A stretch of 64,000 nucleotides of DNA from Candidatus Zixiibacteriota bacterium (GTDB taxonomy: Bacteria; Zixibacteria; MSB-5A5; GN15; FEB-12): NCBI GenBank assembly GCA_034003725.1, contig JAVEYB010000004.1, positions 186,001-250,000 on the forward strand, read 5' to 3'. Positions 9,074 through 18,498 of this stretch are shown here, in pieces. The first letter of the stretch is position 1. Every line of letters starts with the position of its first letter. Below the pieces are notes generated by a model, which worked only from the letters and a program-made list of their open reading frames with translations, did no database searches and was not told the DNA's origin. The position numbers and the translations under genes are program-made.

Positions 9074-10504
9074 TTACTTCAGCAGGATCATCTTCTTCGT
9101 TTCGTTTCTTTCCGCCGTACTCAGCCGGTACAAATACACACCGCTTGAATATTCTGCGGCGTCCCAGGTTACTGTATGGAACCCGGCGCTGATCACGCCG
9201 TCAACCAATGTCTCGATATGCTGACCGGTGATATTGTATACTTTCAATGTTGCGTGCGACGTCGACGGTATCGCGAAGCTGATCTCGGTGATCGGATTGA
9301 ACGGATTCGGGTAATTCTGCATCAATCCGAACTCGTGGGGCAGCGAGGCGGACATACCTGCGCCCTCCCCGTACACCCATCCGCTCTCACAGGCTTTGGT
9401 GACCAGGTTTGAGGATGGTTCATAGGTCAGCGACGCATGGGGTACAGCGGTAACCTCAAAACACCATTCGCCGGTGCAGCACTTTGTCTTGCCGGTTGTG
9501 AATTGCACGTTGCCGTCAGTCCCAGTAGTGCCACTGAATGAACCGCCCACGGGACCGGTGGCGTTCGCATTGACCGTGGCCCCCGAAACGGGTTGACCAT
9601 TGCTATCAAACACGGTGATCGTAGCAGTACCACTGCATTTGACACCCGCATTGGTTCGTCCTGCTACCATATTCTGCACGTGCATCGTGCCACCAACCGG
9701 CGGCTCGCTAACCGTGATGTAGTTCGACTTGGTTTCAACGTCCGATCCGTACTCACTGGAGACCGTTAACGACACCGTGTAAGTGCCCGCGGCCTGATAC
9801 TGGTGCGACGGATTTTGCGACGTCGATGTTCCGCCATCGCCAGAATCCCAGTTCCATGAAGTCGGGGCGCCGGTTGACCGATCGGTAAACTGCACCGTCA
9901 GTGGATAGGTCCCCGAGGTGGGGGACTCAGAGAAATTCGCGACCCGAGCTGACGGCTCGGTGCTGTAGGCTATGTACATGTGGTCCACATAGCCGTACGT
10001 ATCCCAATAATGCAACTGGTCATACGGAAATTCCGCCGGCGGATTATCGTAATAGGTATCATTCGGTGTTGCATACAGCGCGTGGATACCGATGGGTTCT
10101 ACGCGCTTCACCGTCGGCAGCGCTGCGTACGCAGCCGTGACCTCGTCGAGATTCCCGGAATCGAACCGTACCTTGTAGTGCCGTGCCAGCGACCGGGTGG
10201 CCACATCCCCACCCCGATCGGCGCGATCCGATCCCGGAGACTGCGGTCGAAGGGTTGTGACCGAATACCGATCGGCCAGTTGATCGAAGTCGGACAGTCC
10301 CATCGTAGCTACGCGAGATTGCCGGTCTCTGCTGTGGTCGACCGCAGCGTTGTCGTCCCGAATAACCACAAACTCATTGGGGACGTATCCGATGAGGGAG
10401 GGCTGATTCAGGTACTTACCCGGATCGACCGGCAGGATCTGTTCCGATTGCAGCGGCGATGTCACAAGCAAACACAGCAGCGTGACGGTGAGGAGACGCT
10501 TCAT
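9074..10504 (-). CDS. Secreted PKD protein with subtilase-like propeptide and sorting tail
   Basis: The order is signal peptide (about 1-20), a region like the N-terminal propeptide of secreted subtilases (about 25-170, with RHYKVRFDSGNLDEV and VKRVEPIG, ending PNDTYYDN...LHYWDTYG), PKD domain (about 187-266, with WNWDSGDGGTSTSQNPSHQY), an Ig-like domain (about 275-366) and a sorting tail (about 387-476, NYPNPFNP to KKMILLK). In subtilases the propeptide motif leads into the Asp-containing catalytic domain; here it leads into PKD, and no DSG, HGTxVAG or GTSMA motif exists. It is probably an exported surface protein without protease activity. The ATG at 10504 follows AGGAGG; upstream in-frame codons lack support. 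Confidence 0.8.
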   Translation of the reverse strand: MKRLLTVTLLCLLVTSPLQSEQILPVDPGKYLNQPSLIGYVPNEFVVIRDDNAAVDHSRDRQSRVATMGLSDFDQLADRYSVTTLRPQSPGSDRADRGGDVATRSLARHYKVRFDSGNLDEVTAAYAALPTVKRVEPIGIHALYATPNDTYYDNPPAEFPYDQLHYWDTYGYVDHMYIAYSTEPSARVANFSESPTSGTYPLTVQFTDRSTGAPTSWNWDSGDGGTSTSQNPSHQYQAAGTYTVSLTVSSEYGSDVETKSNYITVSEPPVGGTMHVQNMVAGRTNAGVKCSGTATITVFDSNGQPVSGATVNANATGPVGGSFSGTTGTDGNVQFTTGKTKCCTGEWCFEVTAVPHASLTYEPSSNLVTKACESGWVYGEGAGMSASLPHEFGLMQNYPNPFNPITEISFAIPSTSHATLKVYNITGQHIETLVDGVISAGFHTVTWDAAEYSSGVYLYRLSTAERNETKKMILLK

Positions 10505-10750: not shown

Positions 10751-10781
10751 AAAAAAAGGCCCGCCGTGCGGCGGGCCTGTG
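10751..10781 (-). terminator. Intrinsic terminator of the dockerin-subtilase gene
   Basis: An 8-bp GC stem (GGCCCGCC 10758-10765, GGCGGGCC 10770-10777, loop GTGC) is followed on the minus strand by seven Ts (10757-10751). It lies about 30 nt after the subtilase stop and probably ends the whole sigma-CHAT-subtilase operon. Confidence 0.85.
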
Positions 10782-10812: not shown

Positions 10813-12234
10813 TCATTCAGTGCACCGATGAGGCGCGGGGCCGCCGCGGAACAAATAGGCAGCCAGCCGATCCACATCGCCGGCATCAAGACCGTTGTTA
10901 CAGTTCAAGTCACATTGGCGCACGCTCACCGGGCGTCCGTGGTGTCCCTGGCCCCCGGCAAACACGAGTCTGGACAGAATGCGAAGATCGGTGGCATCCA
11001 CAACCCCTGAATTGTCCAGATCACCTTTGGCCGCGTCGGCAACCGCCGCATACGCGTCCAGTGCGCCCCACCCAAAATAAGAGTCAGGGACATCAAGCTC
11101 ACCCCAGAGCAGTGTGCTTCGCGCGGTGAGTCGTAGATGATTCTGGATCGCGGCCGACGACAACGGACCAGTCCGCTCGAGTACCAGGGCCACCGTTCCC
11201 GTCACGAACGGAGCCGAAAAGGAGGTCCCGCTCCAGGTCCCCCACTCGTATTCCCCGGCCAGGCTGCTGTACACGTTCACTCCCGGCGCAACCAGATCAA
11301 GCGTCGGGCCGTAGCTCGAGAAAAGAGCCCTCTGGTCCTGTGTGTCTACCGCCCCCACGGAAATCACGGATCCAAATGCCGCTGGATACAACGGAACGGT
11401 CGTCCCGTAGTTGCCCGAGGCCGCCACAAGTACCACACCCGCCGACAACGCCCGGTCCACAACGCTCGCGAGTACCGGGTACTGCTCAAACGTCCCGAAA
11501 CTCATGTTTATCACCTGGGCGCCGAGTTCTATCGCTTTCCGAATCGACTTCGCGGTGTTGAACTCACTGCCAACCCCGTCGCCGTCAAAGGCCCGAATCG
11601 GTACGATCTGGCAATCCGGAGCCGCCAGAAGAATCAAACCGGTGACGAAAGTCCCGTGACCGTACATCGTCCCCGGCTCCTCGCTCGGATCGTTGTCGTT
11701 ATCAATGAAGTCGTGTCCTCCCAGGACGCGGCTTGACTGCATAAGGGGGTGATCGAACGAAATTCCGTTGTCGATCACTGCGACCGTCACGCCTGCCCCG
11801 CTCGCCAGGACCTGAGCGGAATCAAGCCCCGTCGCGTACACCCCGGTCTGGTCATAATACGTCGGCGGGTTCGTACCAAACGAAAACACCGGACGCTCCT
11901 GATCGGGAAATCCGATCGAGATCTGCTGCACTTCCGGTAAAACGTAGTGATGATTTGGTTGCGCAAACTGGATGTGGGGGTTCTTGAGAAGCATCTTGAT
12001 AATCCCGCCCACCTGACGCGTGGTATCGAATTCCAGCAAGTATGTCTGCTCGTCCGGTATACTGTCGGCGATCGTAATACCCGGATGATTCAGAATACTC
12101 TTCGGAGTACCCCCGACCTTGAATTTGACAATCGCTTCTCCCGGAACAATCGTCTCTGTGATGCCTGTCGAAACCAAACATAAAAGCAGCAGGAACCCGA
12201 CAGCGGTGCTGCGGATCAGCCATGACGGAATCAT
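10813..12234 (-). CDS. Secreted subtilisin-like (S8) protease with dockerin domain
   Basis: The 473-residue protein has a signal peptide (to about residue 27), an inhibitor-like propeptide (about 28-100, GEAIVKFKVGG to NPHIQFAQPNH) and a subtilase domain with Asp155 (VAVIDNGI), His193 (YGHGTFVTG), Asn275 (AASGNYG) and Ser338 (SGTSFSAPFVTG), so the full triad is present. Residues about 405-470 form a type I dockerin with two calcium-binding repeats (GDLDNSGVVDATDLRILSRL and CDLNCNNGLDAGDVDRLAAY), which could attach it to a cohesin. It is exported. It starts 24 nt after the CHAT gene's stop with a GAGGGTG ribosome site and is the last gene of that operon. Confidence 0.93.
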   Translation of the reverse strand: MIPSWLIRSTAVGFLLLLCLVSTGITETIVPGEAIVKFKVGGTPKSILNHPGITIADSIPDEQTYLLEFDTTRQVGGIIKMLLKNPHIQFAQPNHHYVLPEVQQISIGFPDQERPVFSFGTNPPTYYDQTGVYATGLDSAQVLASGAGVTVAVIDNGISFDHPLMQSSRVLGGHDFIDNDNDPSEEPGTMYGHGTFVTGLILLAAPDCQIVPIRAFDGDGVGSEFNTAKSIRKAIELGAQVINMSFGTFEQYPVLASVVDRALSAGVVLVAASGNYGTTVPLYPAAFGSVISVGAVDTQDQRALFSSYGPTLDLVAPGVNVYSSLAGEYEWGTWSGTSFSAPFVTGTVALVLERTGPLSSAAIQNHLRLTARSTLLWGELDVPDSYFGWGALDAYAAVADAAKGDLDNSGVVDATDLRILSRLVFAGGQGHHGRPVSVRQCDLNCNNGLDAGDVDRLAAYLFRGGPAPHRCTE

Positions 12235-12258
12235 GTCACCCTCACTTGGCCCGAGTCC

Positions 12259-15021
12259 TCACAACCCGAGCAATACAAAGGAACCCCAGTAAGCAACCGA
12301 CGGCGCAAGTGCTCGAAGCGTGTCGACGGCTGCGGTGTAAGCCTGCGGTACAGTTTTCCCCCGTTGCAGCGACCGATACAACTCAACCATAAAGACGCGG
12401 GTCAGACTGTCGCTGACCGGCCAGAGCGATGCCAACACGTATCGGCTCCCCGCCTGATAGAAGGCCCTGGCCAGACTGAACGAGTTACCGTAATTTAACC
12501 CCGGAGCCGCCGTTTGGCAACCAGAAAGCGTTGTCATTTGGGCCCTTACCCCGGTCCCGAACAAATCAAACGGGAAAAACGGACCGTCGTACATCAGCAT
12601 CCGCGAAAACAACGGATTCTCGGACGAGCGCGAGGCATGAGTCGCAATATGCACCAGTCCGTTCGCCTCCATCAACTCTCGCCTCAGAACATCGCACGTT
12701 GCCGCCTCCCCCGAGTATAACCGCGCCCGCGGAAAGAGGCCCGCAATCTCCCTCGCCTCATCATCGGCCGACGGTAATGTCGGCGACGACACGGAAAACA
12801 CGGCGTGGCTCAGCGTACTCCAGTCGCTTGGTTCGGGGCTCCGACGGGTCACCTGCCCCGGGTCGACTATCAATCGAAGATCGAACTGCCGACCGAGCGG
12901 ATTACTCGTACTGCCGAGCGCCCCGAACGGAACCTCCACAAACACCCCATCGGCCAGCACAACTAAACGAGGTGTGCGCAGGAGCCCTCCGAACGGAGCG
13001 ACGAGACTGCTGTGCAGGCTGCTGAGAAGACTCTCGACCGCGGTCCCCGTGCGTACCGGCCCTTCGCTCCGACCGCGTACAGCGGTCTCGAACAGGAAAT
13101 GCAGCTTTCTCACATCAGCGTACAGTCGGTCGCTGTCAACTTCCATGGGCACAAATGTGGTGTCCCCGGCCGCCGCTACAAAAGCCCCGATCCGCCCGCC
13201 CCGCATTGTGTAGTGCACCAGCGTCTCATCCGGCCGCAACGCCGAATGAACATCGAAAGCATCACCTCCGTGCACCCGCTCGCGGGTTACAGTCGTCGAG
13301 ACCGAGGCCCTCGCTTTCCGCTCCAGCGCCCACAGACGCTGCTCAGTCGCTCGTACGTTGACGAGAGTCGATCCCGACCTCTGTCCTGTTCGGGGAAACT
13401 GCTGATACCGCCGCAACGTCAGCCTCAGTTTATCGATCTCGTCGGCTACGGATCGTGGTATCTCTGCTCGAAGCTGTCGGGTCACTGCCGACGGCCGGTT
13501 GACCAGCGACAGCGCCCCCAGACTGTGCACGAAAGCGTCATCGGTCTGCTTTAACTCGAGCAGGCTGTGAACCAGATGTCGATAGCTATCGAGCTTGTCG
13601 GCGACAAAGAAATGGCGAACGTCGTCATAGTTCAGTCGTGACGCCATGGATTCGACCGCCTCAATGGCCGGTCGCAGGTGATTGAGCGCAGTGACATAAT
13701 CCCCCCGGCGGTAATGGAAATCTCCCAGCAGCCTCTGGACGCTATACTGCTGATACTGCGTCAGGGTCATGTCCAGCAGGTTCCGGGCCACCCGCATCGG
13801 GGCGACACCCCGCCGCGACATGAGCAGGGCTCCCAACTGCGCGATGTCGGCGTCTACCGCTCGGCGTTCGTCCCGGCTCCGCCGGAACAGCCGACGGGCC
13901 CGGGTCGACTCATCGGCCGCGTCGCGGTACCGCCCCCGCGCCATCAACAGCCGACAACGTGCGAAGTGCACCATTCCCTGCCACAGTTCGTTTCCTTCAC
14001 GAATGAAAATCCGCTCCGCCGCCCGTAAGCGGGCCGCCGCCTCCGCATTATCACCGAGCGAGAGCTGCCCCGACGCTGCGAAATACCGGGCCTTCCCCTC
14101 TTCGTATCCCATTTTGAGCGATCGAAACTGCCCGGCCACTTCGTCCGCCAGCGTTATTGCTGACCCGTACTGGTTCAATTGCAGATGCAGCTCCGCCAGA
14201 TCAAGTCTTGTGACCGCCGCCGACCGCATATCACCAACCTGTTCGAACCGGTCCAGTACCCGTTCGAACAGCGACAACGCTTCGGTATACCGACCATCGA
14301 GAAAGCACAGGTACGCGATCGAGTACCGGCAAAGTGTCTCCGGAATCGTCAACCCCGCCGACGCATATATGGCTGACGCGCCTTCATATAACGTGCGTGC
14401 CTCGGAAAGGCGGAAGAGGTTCGTCAGGACGTTCGCGCGATTGTAGTCCACAATCGCCACCGGTACGCCGCCCTGTCCGGCGAATATAGCCCGGGCCTTG
14501 TCGTAGTAGTGCAAAGCCAGCCTGTTGTTGTCCATGCGGTGATAGACGTTGCCGACATTGGTCATCGCCTGTGCGGCATCGGATAAAAGCTCGTGGGACT
14601 CGAAATACCGGATCGCCTTTCGCCCCGACAGGAGGGCCTCACGATACTGACCGAGATACATATATACCTCGGCCAACACCCGGTTCAGACGGGCGACATT
14701 CACTGACTCCCGCTGCGACCGATACGCCGACTGCGCTGCCAGGTACTTGCGAAGGGCTTCCTGGTGCCGACCGGAAAAGTGGAATAGTCGTGCTTCCATC
14801 GCCAGCAACCGTGGCCGGTACCGGTCCGGCAGACAGGCAAACACCCGCGCCGCCCGCCTGACATAAAGCCTGGCGTCTTTGAGGTCGTTCCGCAGAACAG
14901 CGTTTAACCCGGCGTCAAGTGCCCTGACGGCCGCCTCGCTGTCTTCCGAATACCGTGTCGTGAGAAAAGACTCAACCGCGGAACGGGATCGCAGCGTCGA
15001 TAACTCAGCCAGCGTGATCAT
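12259..15021 (-). CDS. TPR-CHAT caspase-like protease
   Basis: The 920-residue cytoplasmic protein has no signal peptide. Residues about 60-500 are a long series of TPR-type helix pairs (LYVRRAARVFACLPDRYRPR, YLGQYREALLSGRKAIRYFE, MDNNRLALHYYDKARAIF). The C-terminal third is a CHAT domain with the expected dyad His795 (VHIATHA) and Cys835 (TLSGCQTA), followed by FSLARAFYQAGSRYVLASLW. CHAT proteins are clan CD cysteine proteases that cut a partner when the TPR part senses a signal. Its start overlaps the preceding stop by 4 bp (ATGA), so it is translationally coupled to the putative anti-sigma gene, which I infer is its substrate or regulator. The protease call is firm; the target is unproven. 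Confidence 0.9.
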   Translation of the reverse strand: MITLAELSTLRSRSAVESFLTTRYSEDSEAAVRALDAGLNAVLRNDLKDARLYVRRAARVFACLPDRYRPRLLAMEARLFHFSGRHQEALRKYLAAQSAYRSQRESVNVARLNRVLAEVYMYLGQYREALLSGRKAIRYFESHELLSDAAQAMTNVGNVYHRMDNNRLALHYYDKARAIFAGQGGVPVAIVDYNRANVLTNLFRLSEARTLYEGASAIYASAGLTIPETLCRYSIAYLCFLDGRYTEALSLFERVLDRFEQVGDMRSAAVTRLDLAELHLQLNQYGSAITLADEVAGQFRSLKMGYEEGKARYFAASGQLSLGDNAEAAARLRAAERIFIREGNELWQGMVHFARCRLLMARGRYRDAADESTRARRLFRRSRDERRAVDADIAQLGALLMSRRGVAPMRVARNLLDMTLTQYQQYSVQRLLGDFHYRRGDYVTALNHLRPAIEAVESMASRLNYDDVRHFFVADKLDSYRHLVHSLLELKQTDDAFVHSLGALSLVNRPSAVTRQLRAEIPRSVADEIDKLRLTLRRYQQFPRTGQRSGSTLVNVRATEQRLWALERKARASVSTTVTRERVHGGDAFDVHSALRPDETLVHYTMRGGRIGAFVAAAGDTTFVPMEVDSDRLYADVRKLHFLFETAVRGRSEGPVRTGTAVESLLSSLHSSLVAPFGGLLRTPRLVVLADGVFVEVPFGALGSTSNPLGRQFDLRLIVDPGQVTRRSPEPSDWSTLSHAVFSVSSPTLPSADDEAREIAGLFPRARLYSGEAATCDVLRRELMEANGLVHIATHASRSSENPLFSRMLMYDGPFFPFDLFGTGVRAQMTTLSGCQTAAPGLNYGNSFSLARAFYQAGSRYVLASLWPVSDSLTRVFMVELYRSLQRGKTVPQAYTAAVDTLRALAPSVAYWGSFVLLGL

Positions 15022-15605
15022 ATGTCAATTTGAATGAAGGCGATTTCCTCGCCGGATCGAACAACGGCCAGTCGCGAATCACCACCCGCAACTCGCGCAA
15101 AACGAAAGAGATGATGCTCGTCAGCATCTACTGATTGCAGCTTTCTCCCCTGACGCAGCACAATCGTCAGGCGATCCCCCGCCGGTTGTCCTGCCAGCTG
15201 GCCAACCATCTCAAACGAATTCATCGTCAGCGGGTACAACGCCAGACTGAGATCTCCGACATCCAGTTTGAATCGAAGCTGGCGCGTGTCGACCGCGGCC
15301 GGACGCACCCCGTCGGGAAGAGGCACCACCGATGAGTCAAAGACGACCACCCCCTGAATTGAACCCGGCGACGCCTTCTTTCGTAGATAGTCCCGGATTA
15401 TCAACGCGGAAAGGCTCCGCGCGGACTGACTCAACGAGTCATCCGATGTCCGCGTCGCTGCCGTGAGTTCGACCACCACTGCCAGTAGCTGGGCCAGCTC
15501 GTGATCTGTCTCGATCCGGCCTTTCAACTCTGAACGCGTTTCTTCGTCAAGCTCACCGCGATGGTAAGCGAGAAGTTGACGTACGATGTCCTGATTAATC
15601 TCCAT
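15018..15605 (-). CDS. Putative soluble anti-sigma factor
   Basis: I recognise no exact family for this 195-residue protein. Its first 50 residues (QDIVRQLLAYHRGELDEETR...KGRIETDHELAQLL) have the helical pattern of anti-sigma-factor N-termini, but without the zinc-binding HxxxCxxC. There is no membrane helix or signal peptide. Residues about 80-195 alternate strands and turns (FKLDVGDLSLALYPL, AGDRLTIVLRQGRKL, LAVVRSGEEIAFIQIDI) and may be a small beta-sandwich. Its place between an ECF sigma gene (51 nt upstream) and the CHAT gene (4-bp overlap) is the main reason to call it an anti-sigma factor. A structural or substrate protein for the CHAT protease is the alternative. Confidence 0.6.
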   Translation of the reverse strand: MEINQDIVRQLLAYHRGELDEETRSELKGRIETDHELAQLLAVVVELTAATRTSDDSLSQSARSLSALIIRDYLRKKASPGSIQGVVVFDSSVVPLPDGVRPAAVDTRQLRFKLDVGDLSLALYPLTMNSFEMVGQLAGQPAGDRLTIVLRQGRKLQSVDADEHHLFRFARVAGGDSRLAVVRSGEEIAFIQIDI

Positions 15606-15656
15606 GGCGTCACCACTAACGAGGAGTCGTATTCCTGCGTGTTTGATACGTCGATT

Positions 15657-16286
15657 TCATAAGTCCTTGTTACTCCGCTGTAAGAACCTCCTCAGCTTCG
15701 CCAGCGCCCGGGCCCGCGTTGGGCCGATCGACGCAATGGGTATCCCGAGCCGCGTTGAAATCTCCTGGTACGTCGGCTCCGCCTCGTCAAGGAACAGCGC
15801 CTTCACGAGTTCAAATTCGCGACGGGTGAGGCGGCCAAGCGCTTCCATGAGGATTCGCGTCCGGTCCGCCTCCACCAACCTCTCGTCGTGCCCGGACTCC
15901 TCATAGACCAGACTGTCCTGCGCCTGATCGCTGGTGCCGTCCACGAATATCCGCCGCCGCCGTACCTGCGAGTACACCTCGTGGCGCGTAATACTGGCCA
16001 CGAAGCCGAACAGCTTCTCCGACGATCGCAGCCGGTCAATATTGCTCAGTAGTAGAAAGCACACCTGACCAAAAATGTCGAGACTCTCCTCCTGGCTCAG
16101 GTGCATTCTGCGGCAAACCGAGAGAATCACCGGCGTGACCAGATCTATCAGCTCCTGCCACGCCGCCGGATCATTGGCCCGGCAGCGGCCAACCAAACCG
16201 CCGAGCATACTCGTTCTGTTGGTGCTGTCGTCCTGCCCGCCTGCCATCACCCGCTCTTGCGTATCGTACCGTCTGGCTTCATCCAA
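15657..16286 (-). CDS. ECF-type RNA polymerase sigma factor
   Basis: The 209-residue protein has sigma region 2 (about 40-110, LIDLVTPVILSVCRRM, EESLDIFGQVCFLLL, RLRSSEKLFGFVASITRHEV) and region 4 (about 145-205, MEALGRLTRREFELVKALFL then the helix-turn-helix YQEISTRLGIPIASIGPTRA and RALAKLRRFL). It has no region 3 or region 1.1, as expected of an ECF factor. It probably directs RNA polymerase to a small regulon under control of the protein encoded next. It lies 25 nt after the DUF885 gene and 51 nt before the putative anti-sigma gene. A second in-frame ATG at 16247 is possible; neither start has a strong ribosome site. Confidence 0.9.
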   Translation of the reverse strand: MDEARRYDTQERVMAGGQDDSTNRTSMLGGLVGRCRANDPAAWQELIDLVTPVILSVCRRMHLSQEESLDIFGQVCFLLLSNIDRLRSSEKLFGFVASITRHEVYSQVRRRRIFVDGTSDQAQDSLVYEESGHDERLVEADRTRILMEALGRLTRREFELVKALFLDEAEPTYQEISTRLGIPIASIGPTRARALAKLRRFLQRSNKDL

Positions 16287-16311: not shown

Positions 16312-18057
16312 TCAGCGCTCCCGCTGTGCCGCGACCCACCTCCGCACCAGCGACTCCAGTACGTCGAGAGGTACACACCCGGACCCCAACAGCGTGTCGT
16401 GAAATGCCCTGAGGTCAAACCGTTCACCGAGAGTCGCCTCGGCATCAGCCCGCATCGCCTGAATCCTCAACTGCCCGATCTTGTACGACAGCGCCTGTCC
16501 GGGCCACACCAGGTAACGGTCGATTTCCACCGTAATGTCATGCAGACTCTTGCTGGAGTTCTGTCGGAAAAACGTGATCGCCTGCTCCCGGGACCAGCCG
16601 CGGTGGTGCATTCCCGGATCGACGACCAGCCGGATGGCCCGCCACATGTCATAGGTCAACGCGCCGAACAGAGCGAACGGATCGCTATAGAACCCCATGT
16701 CGGCTCCGAGACTCTCTGCGTACAGCGCCCAGCCTTCCCCGTATGCGGTGATCCAGCTCTGACGACGGAACTCGGGCAGATCGGTCAACTCCTGCATTCG
16801 CGCGATCTGGAGATGATGTCCCGGCACGGCCTCGTGAAGGCTCAGGGCCTCCATTTCCCACTTCGGCCGCGATGGCAGATCGTACGTGTTGACGTAGTAA
16901 TAGCCGGGGCGGCCGGCCGCTGGAGCCCCCGGCTGGTAATACGCCGTCGTTTGAGATTTCTCTGCATGCGGCGGGATCGGCACGACCCCGTACGGGAGGC
17001 GCGGAAGTGTCCCGAACAACTTCACCAACTCAGGATCAGCACGCTTTGCGATATCACGGTACGCCCTCACCAGATCATCGGCCGAGGTGAAAAAGAACTT
17101 CGAATCCGTTCGCAGGTGCTCGCAGAACTGGTCGAACGTCCCCGCAAATCCGGTCTGTCGCATGACCCGCTCCATCTCCGCCCGTATGCGAGCCACTTCG
17201 GTCATACCGATCCCGAAAATGTCATCGGGTGACAGATCCGTCGTGGTCTCCCGCTGCACGATAAACCGATACCATTCGGCCCCGTTCGGCATGTGCAGCC
17301 AGCCGGTTCGCTCCGTGCAGCCGGGAATGTACCGCTCGGTGAGAAACGCCTGCAATCGCTTGAATGCCGGCATTACGACCTGCAGACACAGCGATTCGCA
17401 CGATCGGGAAAACTCCCTCCACACCTGCTCGCCGACACCGGAAGGCCTGCGCGACAGAAACGCAAGAAGGGCAGATTCCCCCGGTGCAGCCGTCAAGAGC
17501 GCCGCTACCTGCGACGGCAGGTCGCGAAGACAAACTTTTGGAAATGTCACCCCTTTGCCCAGTCCGCGCTCCAACAGCACGATCGTCTGGTCGATCAGTG
17601 CCGGGACTCGCTCCAGCCGCGCCAATACCGCCGCGCGATCTTCGCCTCGCCGCATCGGCATAAGCTCGAGGATACGAGGCACCTCTTGCTGCGGGCCGTG
17701 CATCTGACTGATTGGCAAGAGGATGTCGTCATGCCGCGATTCCTGCTCGGCTATCTCCGCCTGTCGCATCAACAAATCGTAGCTGAGTTGATCTCCCTCC
17801 GACAAGCTGTCGCGGTCAAACGATCCAAGAAGCGCTTTGATGATGACGGGCCTTTGACGGCGCCGCTCGATGGCGCTGTCCGCCCAGTCCGTCCACCGAT
17901 CCTGGTAGCGACCGTACCCCGCCCCGGTCGCCTGCTCCGGGAATTCCTCCATCTGGTTATCCCAGACCAGATCAAAGGCTCGCCGTAACCGCTCTGCCTC
18001 GGGCATCGTGCCCTTCTGTGCAATGGCGTCCCGACTGTCCTGATCAAATCGATTCAT
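16312..18057 (-). CDS. DUF885 family metal-dependent hydrolase (putative carboxypeptidase)
   Basis: The 581-residue protein shows the DUF885 hallmark HEAVPGHHLQ (408-417), a zinc site of the HExxxGHH type, and late family segments such as ITAYGEGWALYAESLGADMG, RAIRLVVDPGMHHRGWSREQ and PGQALSYKIGQL. Characterised relatives are metal-dependent peptidases or dipeptidases. No signal peptide is visible, so it is probably cytoplasmic. The ATG at 18057 follows GGAG by 5 nt, and the 18 residues upstream of it are not family-like. It is the first gene of the minus-strand run leading 25 nt later to the sigma factor; whether it belongs to that system or only shares a transcript is unclear. Confidence 0.88.
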   Translation of the reverse strand: MNRFDQDSRDAIAQKGTMPEAERLRRAFDLVWDNQMEEFPEQATGAGYGRYQDRWTDWADSAIERRRQRPVIIKALLGSFDRDSLSEGDQLSYDLLMRQAEIAEQESRHDDILLPISQMHGPQQEVPRILELMPMRRGEDRAAVLARLERVPALIDQTIVLLERGLGKGVTFPKVCLRDLPSQVAALLTAAPGESALLAFLSRRPSGVGEQVWREFSRSCESLCLQVVMPAFKRLQAFLTERYIPGCTERTGWLHMPNGAEWYRFIVQRETTTDLSPDDIFGIGMTEVARIRAEMERVMRQTGFAGTFDQFCEHLRTDSKFFFTSADDLVRAYRDIAKRADPELVKLFGTLPRLPYGVVPIPPHAEKSQTTAYYQPGAPAAGRPGYYYVNTYDLPSRPKWEMEALSLHEAVPGHHLQIARMQELTDLPEFRRQSWITAYGEGWALYAESLGADMGFYSDPFALFGALTYDMWRAIRLVVDPGMHHRGWSREQAITFFRQNSSKSLHDITVEIDRYLVWPGQALSYKIGQLRIQAMRADAEATLGERFDLRAFHDTLLGSGCVPLDVLESLVRRWVAAQRER

Positions 18058-18498
18058 GCGTACTCCGTAGTCCAGATCCTGCCGGAATATATATCTTTTT
18101 GAGCCCGGCACATACGGTTACGATAGTCTTGCACCACTGGCCCAGGCGCCTAAAATGAAAGGTGGGTCTGTGAGGAAGACCCACCTTTCTGTGCGTCGGG
18201 CTTGACTCGCGTATCAGGAGCGTCTACGCCCTATTGGGGTACCTTACCTGATTCGACTGAAGTCGAACCGTGAGCGCGTGGCCCAGTGCGGGGTGACCAC
18301 ACGCTGTCTATATCAGTGAGCGCTCGCCGGGCCGAAAAAATACACAATATTTCACCTTTAGTACATTTTTCGCCTCACCACCCCCCTGCCGGCATTCGAC
18401 ATTTTGGTTGGTTCGGGGCTCAAATTGATTACATTCCCCGAACTGCTGCCGATATCGGCTGTGGGAAGTGCGATTTCGAGACGGAGAGTAATGCGAAT
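18058..18498. other. Divergent intergenic region with two inverted repeats
   Basis: This 441-bp gap separates the DUF885 gene (minus) and glnS (plus). It holds a terminator-like hairpin at 18158-18188 and an inverted repeat GTTCGGGG (18411-18418)/CCCCGAAC (18436-18443) with a 17-bp spacer, 56 bp before the glnS start. A weak TTGGTT-N17-GATTAC (18404-18432) overlaps the latter. There is no coding potential. Confidence 0.45.
18158..18188. terminator. Perfect 12-bp hairpin in a divergent gap
   Basis: AAAGGTGGGTCT (18158-18169) pairs fully with AGACCCACCTTT (18177-18188) around the 7-nt loop GTGAGGA. It looks like an intrinsic terminator with A/T flanks, yet no annotated gene ends here. It may be an attenuator in the leader of the DUF885-sigma operon, or the end of a small unannotated transcript. 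Confidence 0.5.

Follow-up and report, generated by a model that had tools for sequence, protein, structure and literature searches.

Can a bacterial sigma factor be set free by a soluble caspase-like protease encoded in its own operon, with no CRISPR system at the locus? The question is raised by a window of 64,000 nucleotides (the whole stretch of DNA analysed here) from a Candidatus Zixiibacteriota genome of 3.73 Mb and 99.5% completeness. On the minus strand of the window, an ECF sigma factor gene is followed by genes for a 195-aa soluble protein, a 920-aa TPR-CHAT protein and an exported dockerin subtilase, an arrangement referred to below as the cassette. A sequence-only reading of this DNA had proposed that the CHAT protein cuts the 195-aa protein, a putative anti-sigma factor, and thereby releases the sigma factor.

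A conserved four-gene cassette

The four genes are separated by 51, −4 (an ATGA overlap) and 24 bp. The cassette ends in an intrinsic terminator (10757..10778, minus strand) whose 9-bp stem contains 8 G-C pairs and is followed by a U/T run; its folding energy is −20.5 kcal/mol (z −3.6). The gene positions, spacing and strong terminator given in the sequence-only reading were all re-found. Upstream on the same strand, a gene for a 599-residue peptidase-like protein (16312-18111) ends only 25-65 bp before the window's sigma gene; a homologue occupies the matching place in a related locus, L042, and is absent there in other relatives, and the gene may be co-transcribed with the cassette in this genus. 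A second exported subtilase (1200 aa in locus L007) comes after the cassette in about 11 related loci; in the window, 9074-10504 (minus strand), downstream of the cassette, encodes a shortened relative of it. In this relative, 184 N-terminal residues and the C-terminal PKD/sorting part are preserved and the catalytic middle is gone.

With the CHAT protein as a query against 133 Zixibacteria genomes, relatives were found in 56, and 66 CHAT genes with their flanks were scanned using family profiles of the sigma factor, the 195-aa protein and the subtilase. The sigma gene and the small gene were both present in 57/57 loci with at least 1.2 kb of upstream sequence (32 of lineage A and 25 of lineage B, see below), and the subtilase in 62 of the 63 loci with room downstream. 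The sole locus without a subtilase (L061) has its sigma and small genes inverted, though still adjacent. All 42 matches of the lineage-A small-protein profile in Zixibacteria adjoin a CHAT gene, and the small protein was never found away from CHAT; the 4-bp ATGA overlap between the two genes recurs in 29 of 33 lineage-A loci. With linkage this regular, and with about 22 ECF-like sigma matches across the 3.7 Mb of the source genome, the cassette is not a chance neighbourhood. Conservation of the gene order in relatives had been set beforehand as a test of the proposal, and the order held.

Two ancient paralogous lineages of the cassette exist: A, to which the copy in the window belongs, and B, found elsewhere in the same genome. 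The lineage-B cassette of this genome (L004) lies about 58 kb off on the same contig, has the identical gene order and also ends in a dockerin subtilase. The A/B split has a support of 1.0 in all four gene trees, and the distances correlate within each lineage; the cassette has therefore been inherited and duplicated as a unit. The two lineages share only about 25-30% identity. The CHAT gene is split at a run of N in L084, and by a frameshift or assembly error in L092. A third CHAT match, on contig C20, covers 54 of the 289 profile positions, and no sigma or anti-sigma gene is recognisable next to it. Beyond the phylum, a tblastn search against plasmids returned only distant CHAT proteins; for the beta domain of the 195-aa protein, it gave no convincing homologue. 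On a Caballeronia plasmid (L104, 4789-13107), a TPR-CHAT gene immediately precedes genes for a two-partner-secretion transporter and a filamentous hemagglutinin, a further case of a CHAT adjoining an exported protein.

The sigma factor and its putative anti-sigma partner

The first gene of the cassette (15657..16247, minus strand) encodes an ECF-type sigma factor of 196 aa. It matches the sigma70-ECF superfamily model TIGR02937 at 61.1 bits (cut-off 42.9), with Sigma70_r2 and Sigma70_r4 matches slightly below their cut-offs, and shows the features of an ECF sigma factor, namely regions 2 and 4 only, a length of about 190 aa and a match to the superfamily model. The identification made from sequence alone was thus confirmed. 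The longest ORF starts at TTG 16286 (209 aa), but ATG 16247 is the more probable start, since a close homologue, that in L042, begins at the matching GTG-ATG.

The second gene (15018..15605, minus strand) encodes the 195-aa protein, which has no membrane segment, no Cys pair and only a sub-threshold zf-HC2 match (E 0.037); no sensor domain was recognised in it. AlphaFold2 predicts a helical region up to about residue 78, followed by a C-terminal beta-sandwich that resembles carboxypeptidase-regulatory domains. Kinship with zinc anti-sigma (ZAS) proteins becomes visible in lineage B, where 18 of 22 small proteins carry the HxxxCxxC motif, 14 of them with an additional upstream His. The small-protein families of the two lineages are remotely homologous (hhalign 97.8%, E 7e-13) and align over most of their length, with lineage-A residues ~31-37 placed opposite the motif. 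The motif itself is found in 0 of 30 lineage-A proteins, which have lost all zinc ligands. The label of putative anti-sigma factor is strengthened by the lineage-B proteins, with the qualification that the lineage-A form is zinc-less.

The sigma factor and the 195-aa protein were also modelled with AlphaFold2 as one chain, read through the sigma stop codon and 17 in-frame linker codons. A structure prediction had been suggested along with the original proposal. The model has a pLDDT of 85 and a pTM of 0.78, and the predicted pair forms a fairly compact unit. Among its first PDB matches are sigma chains from sigma/anti-sigma complexes (SigW-RsiW, AlgU-MucA), but these chains superpose poorly on the model (rmsd ~13 Å), and the two sigma domains, taken as a pair, do not overlay closely. 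The tethered model and its PDB matches are supportive of a sigma/anti-sigma pairing, and not proof of it. Taken together, the linkage, the remote homology and the tethered model make the 195-aa protein very likely the cognate anti-sigma factor.

A role as some other kind of CHAT substrate, within a conflict or defence module whose sigma factor only drives expression, seems very improbable. The missing zinc ligands, sub-threshold zf-HC2 scores and carboxypeptidase-like beta domain of the lineage-A protein would agree with such a role, and caspase modules with ECF sigma genes are known from conflict systems (PMC8195603). The lineage-B homologues nevertheless have HxxxCxxC, the sigma gene is never absent, and the compactness predicted for the sigma factor with the 195-aa protein also speaks for a pair. 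PADLOC returned weak partial matches for CHAT and generic ones for the subtilase, and none for the sigma factor or the 195-aa protein.

The TPR-CHAT protease, a candidate cut site and the subtilase

The third gene (12259..15021, minus strand) encodes a TPR-CHAT cysteine protease of 920 aa. It matches PF12770 at E 2.1e-36 (126.3 bits, cut-off 24) as well as TPR models, and has the His/Cys dyad of CHAT peptidases. The CHAT-domain profile aligns His795 (codon 12637..12639, minus strand) and Cys835 (codon 12517..12519, minus strand) with H585 and C627 of the Craspase TPR-CHAT protein, and also matches them to one His and one Cys in the Myxococcus xanthus protein DdvA. The dyad, described from the sequence as intact and accompanied by TPRs, proved to be invariant: H795 is present in 43/43 aligned homologues, and C835 in all 42 that reach that position. 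The AlphaFold2 model (pLDDT 87.6, pTM 0.84) has a CHAT fold; the PDB structures that match it best are those of Csx29, human separase and DdvA.

Conservation within the anti-sigma candidate is highest at F89-D90-S91...P-x-P-x-G-V-R101...R108, between its two halves (codons 89-110, 15276..15341, minus strand; segment FDS...P.P.GVR......R). Across both lineages, D90 and R101 are found in 52/52 sequences, S91 in 51/52 and R108 in 50/52. On this conservation, the D90-S91...GVR101 loop is a candidate docking or cleavage site. In separase, D2151 reads the P1 Arg, and its counterpart in Craspase is K670 (PMC9729208). An assignment of separase-type Arg specificity to the aspartate of the CHAT WPVxD motif was rejected, as the Craspase alignment puts D2151 at CHAT residue 875 and not at D871. 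R101 is uncertain as the cut site because residue 875, the counterpart of the P1 Arg-reading acid of separase, is not acidic and in most homologues is Met, Arg or Ala. In gingipain and separase, the S1 acid is found near the start of a helix that follows a strand (PMC4626109); the invariant E755 of CHAT sits near a helix start after a strand, close to this S1-type acid position.

With moderate confidence, we favour a self-contained cytoplasmic sigma switch gated by proteolysis, in which a TPR-sensed signal makes CHAT cut the anti-sigma factor and so frees the sigma factor. The soluble 195-aa protein would use its helical N-terminal half to hold the ECF sigma factor, and TPR-CHAT, as a separase/Csx29-like cysteine protease, would stay idle until its TPR superhelix binds a signal. 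Once active, the protease would cut the anti-sigma factor; a possible site is the invariant DS..P.P.GVR loop that separates the two domains. The freed sigma factor would then transcribe a regulon to which its own operon, with the exported subtilase encoded there, probably belongs. An action of CHAT on the anti-sigma factor is the most economical reading, because the two are joined in Csx29/Csx30 and in DdvA and are obligate neighbours here. Distinctly improbable, in our view, is a partner switch without cutting, in which TPR-CHAT frees the sigma factor by binding the anti-sigma factor, or scaffolds the inactive pair. In DdvA, the anti-sigma factor and a CHAT domain share one chain, so an anti-sigma architecture can include CHAT, and TPRs are binding repeats; a pure scaffold, however, needs no dyad, and H795 and C835 are invariant across lineages as divergent as A and B.

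The last gene of the cassette (10813..12234, minus strand) encodes an exported S8 subtilase of 473 aa with a prodomain and a dockerin-like tail. It matches PF00082 at E 2.3e-46 (158.9 bits, cut-off 21.8) and the prodomain model PF22148, has a hydrophobic N-terminus, and contains the motifs VAVIDNG, HGT and GTSF and the Asp/His/Ser triad of S8 peptidases. The Dockerin_1 match is borderline: hmmscan gave 22.7 bits, where 22.9 are required, and the genome search placed it above the cut-off. In a lineage-B subgroup (L073, L076, L078, L079 and L080), the subtilase lies inside an exported protein of 1200-1380 residues, not ~470. A constant exported subtilase fits a co-expressed effector, which the cassette sigma factor may control. 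The shared ECF promoter motif envisaged in the sequence-only reading did not emerge: dyad Gibbs sampling upstream of the sigma genes, run per lineage, gave an information of 11.1 for A and 11.4 for B. Shuffled sequences gave 10.1-11.0, and the motif, judged not to beat these controls, was rejected as a signal. The subtilase is therefore unproven as a target of the sigma factor.

The main rival to the protease-gated switch makes CHAT an output. The sigma/anti-sigma pair would itself sense the signal, for example via the beta-sandwich, and the freed sigma factor would transcribe its own operon, with CHAT as an effector inside the cell and the subtilase outside. The order of the genes would fit, since both lie downstream of the pair, as would the constancy of the exported partner, and other bacterial CHAT proteases are tied to gasdermin-type cell death (as stated in PMC9729208). 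We consider this unlikely: the anti-sigma candidate is soluble and has no recognised sensor domain, its gene is ATGA-coupled to CHAT and never found without it, and the nearest structural matches of CHAT have links to anti-sigma factors.

Relation to known systems

If the protease-gated switch is correct, the Csx29-Csx30-sigma logic would not be peculiar to CRISPR; it would be a single variant of a broader type of bacterial signalling, in which a caspase/separase-type protease gates transcription. The parts are small and separable (196, 195 and 920 aa), come in two paralogous sets in one genome and include a predicted cut region, which makes direct tests of activation, cleavage and specificity feasible. 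Both parts and logic are already known. In the literature searched, which covered few subscription papers, the only detailed accounts found of a CHAT protease with a sigma or anti-sigma factor were those of type III-E CRISPR, and a soluble, CRISPR-free arrangement of three separate proteins with an exported protease, common across a phylum and in two paralogous lineages, was not found. We suggest tentatively that the cassette is a stand-alone, CRISPR-independent, fully soluble switch of sigma factor, anti-sigma factor and separase-like TPR-CHAT, operated by a cut in the conserved interdomain DS..P.P.GVR loop. It would exist in two copies, ancient and insulated from each other, with a wide distribution in the phylum, and would plausibly be a free-living relative of a pathway that type III-E CRISPR coupled to RNA sensing and that DdvA contains in a single membrane protein.

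In type III-E CRISPR, Csx29 cuts Csx30, the inhibitor of CASP-sigma (PMC10028731, PMC9729208). The cassette resembles this CASP/Craspase system in having a TPR-CHAT protease, a soluble sigma inhibitor and an ECF-like sigma factor in one locus (PMC10028731, PMC9729208), and in the CHAT fold and dyad; the cutting of the inhibitor is, for the cassette, a proposal. In contrast to that system, the cassette has no Cas7-11 or crRNA, so its activator must be another, and an exported subtilase is its constant fourth gene. The Csx29 family model NF041237 scored the cassette CHAT at 10.4 bits (cut-off 300), no Csx30 chain occurred among the PDB matches of the 195-aa profile, and no Cas7-11/gRAMP was found among the ORFs around the cassette in the window or in its relatives, which places the locus outside type III-E. 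The earlier statement that no CRISPR component is present is true of the locus but not of the genome, other contigs of which carry cas1. On contig C28 (4586-5422), a Cas1 domain lies in a 904-residue open frame, long enough for a fusion, possibly of reverse transcriptase with Cas1; a CRISPR system is therefore encoded in the genome, away from the contig of the cassette.

The ECF sigma factor DdvS of M. xanthus is active once its anti-sigma factor DdvA is inactivated, by a signal that is called unknown (PMC4374960). As in the cassette, an ECF sigma factor is under an anti-sigma factor associated with a CHAT domain, and the His and Cys align. DdvA is a single transmembrane protein (PDB entries 8rot and 8rw5 are labelled transmembrane anti-sigma factor), whereas the anti-sigma candidate and CHAT of the cassette are separate and soluble. 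No account of cleavage by DdvA was found in the literature searched. We know of no subtilase associated with DdvS/DdvA.

In the CalpL/CalpT/CalpS system of type III CRISPR, transcription is likewise switched on by a dedicated cytoplasmic protease that targets an anti-sigma factor (PMC11417357, PMC12751052). CalpL is a Lon-type protease with a SAVED cyclic-nucleotide sensor, in contrast to a CHAT with TPRs. The EACC2/caspase conflict systems share with the cassette a caspase-like protease, an ECF sigma factor and a TPR protein in one neighbourhood, although no anti-sigma factor is described in the part of PMC8195603 that bears on them, and their effector-associated domains and variable effectors are absent from the cassette. 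ZAS factors such as RsiW and RsrA are matched by the lineage-B homologues, which carry HxxxCxxC beside an ECF sigma gene; the lineage-A protein differs from them in its lack of zinc ligands and in its C-terminal beta-sandwich with the DS...GVR segment.
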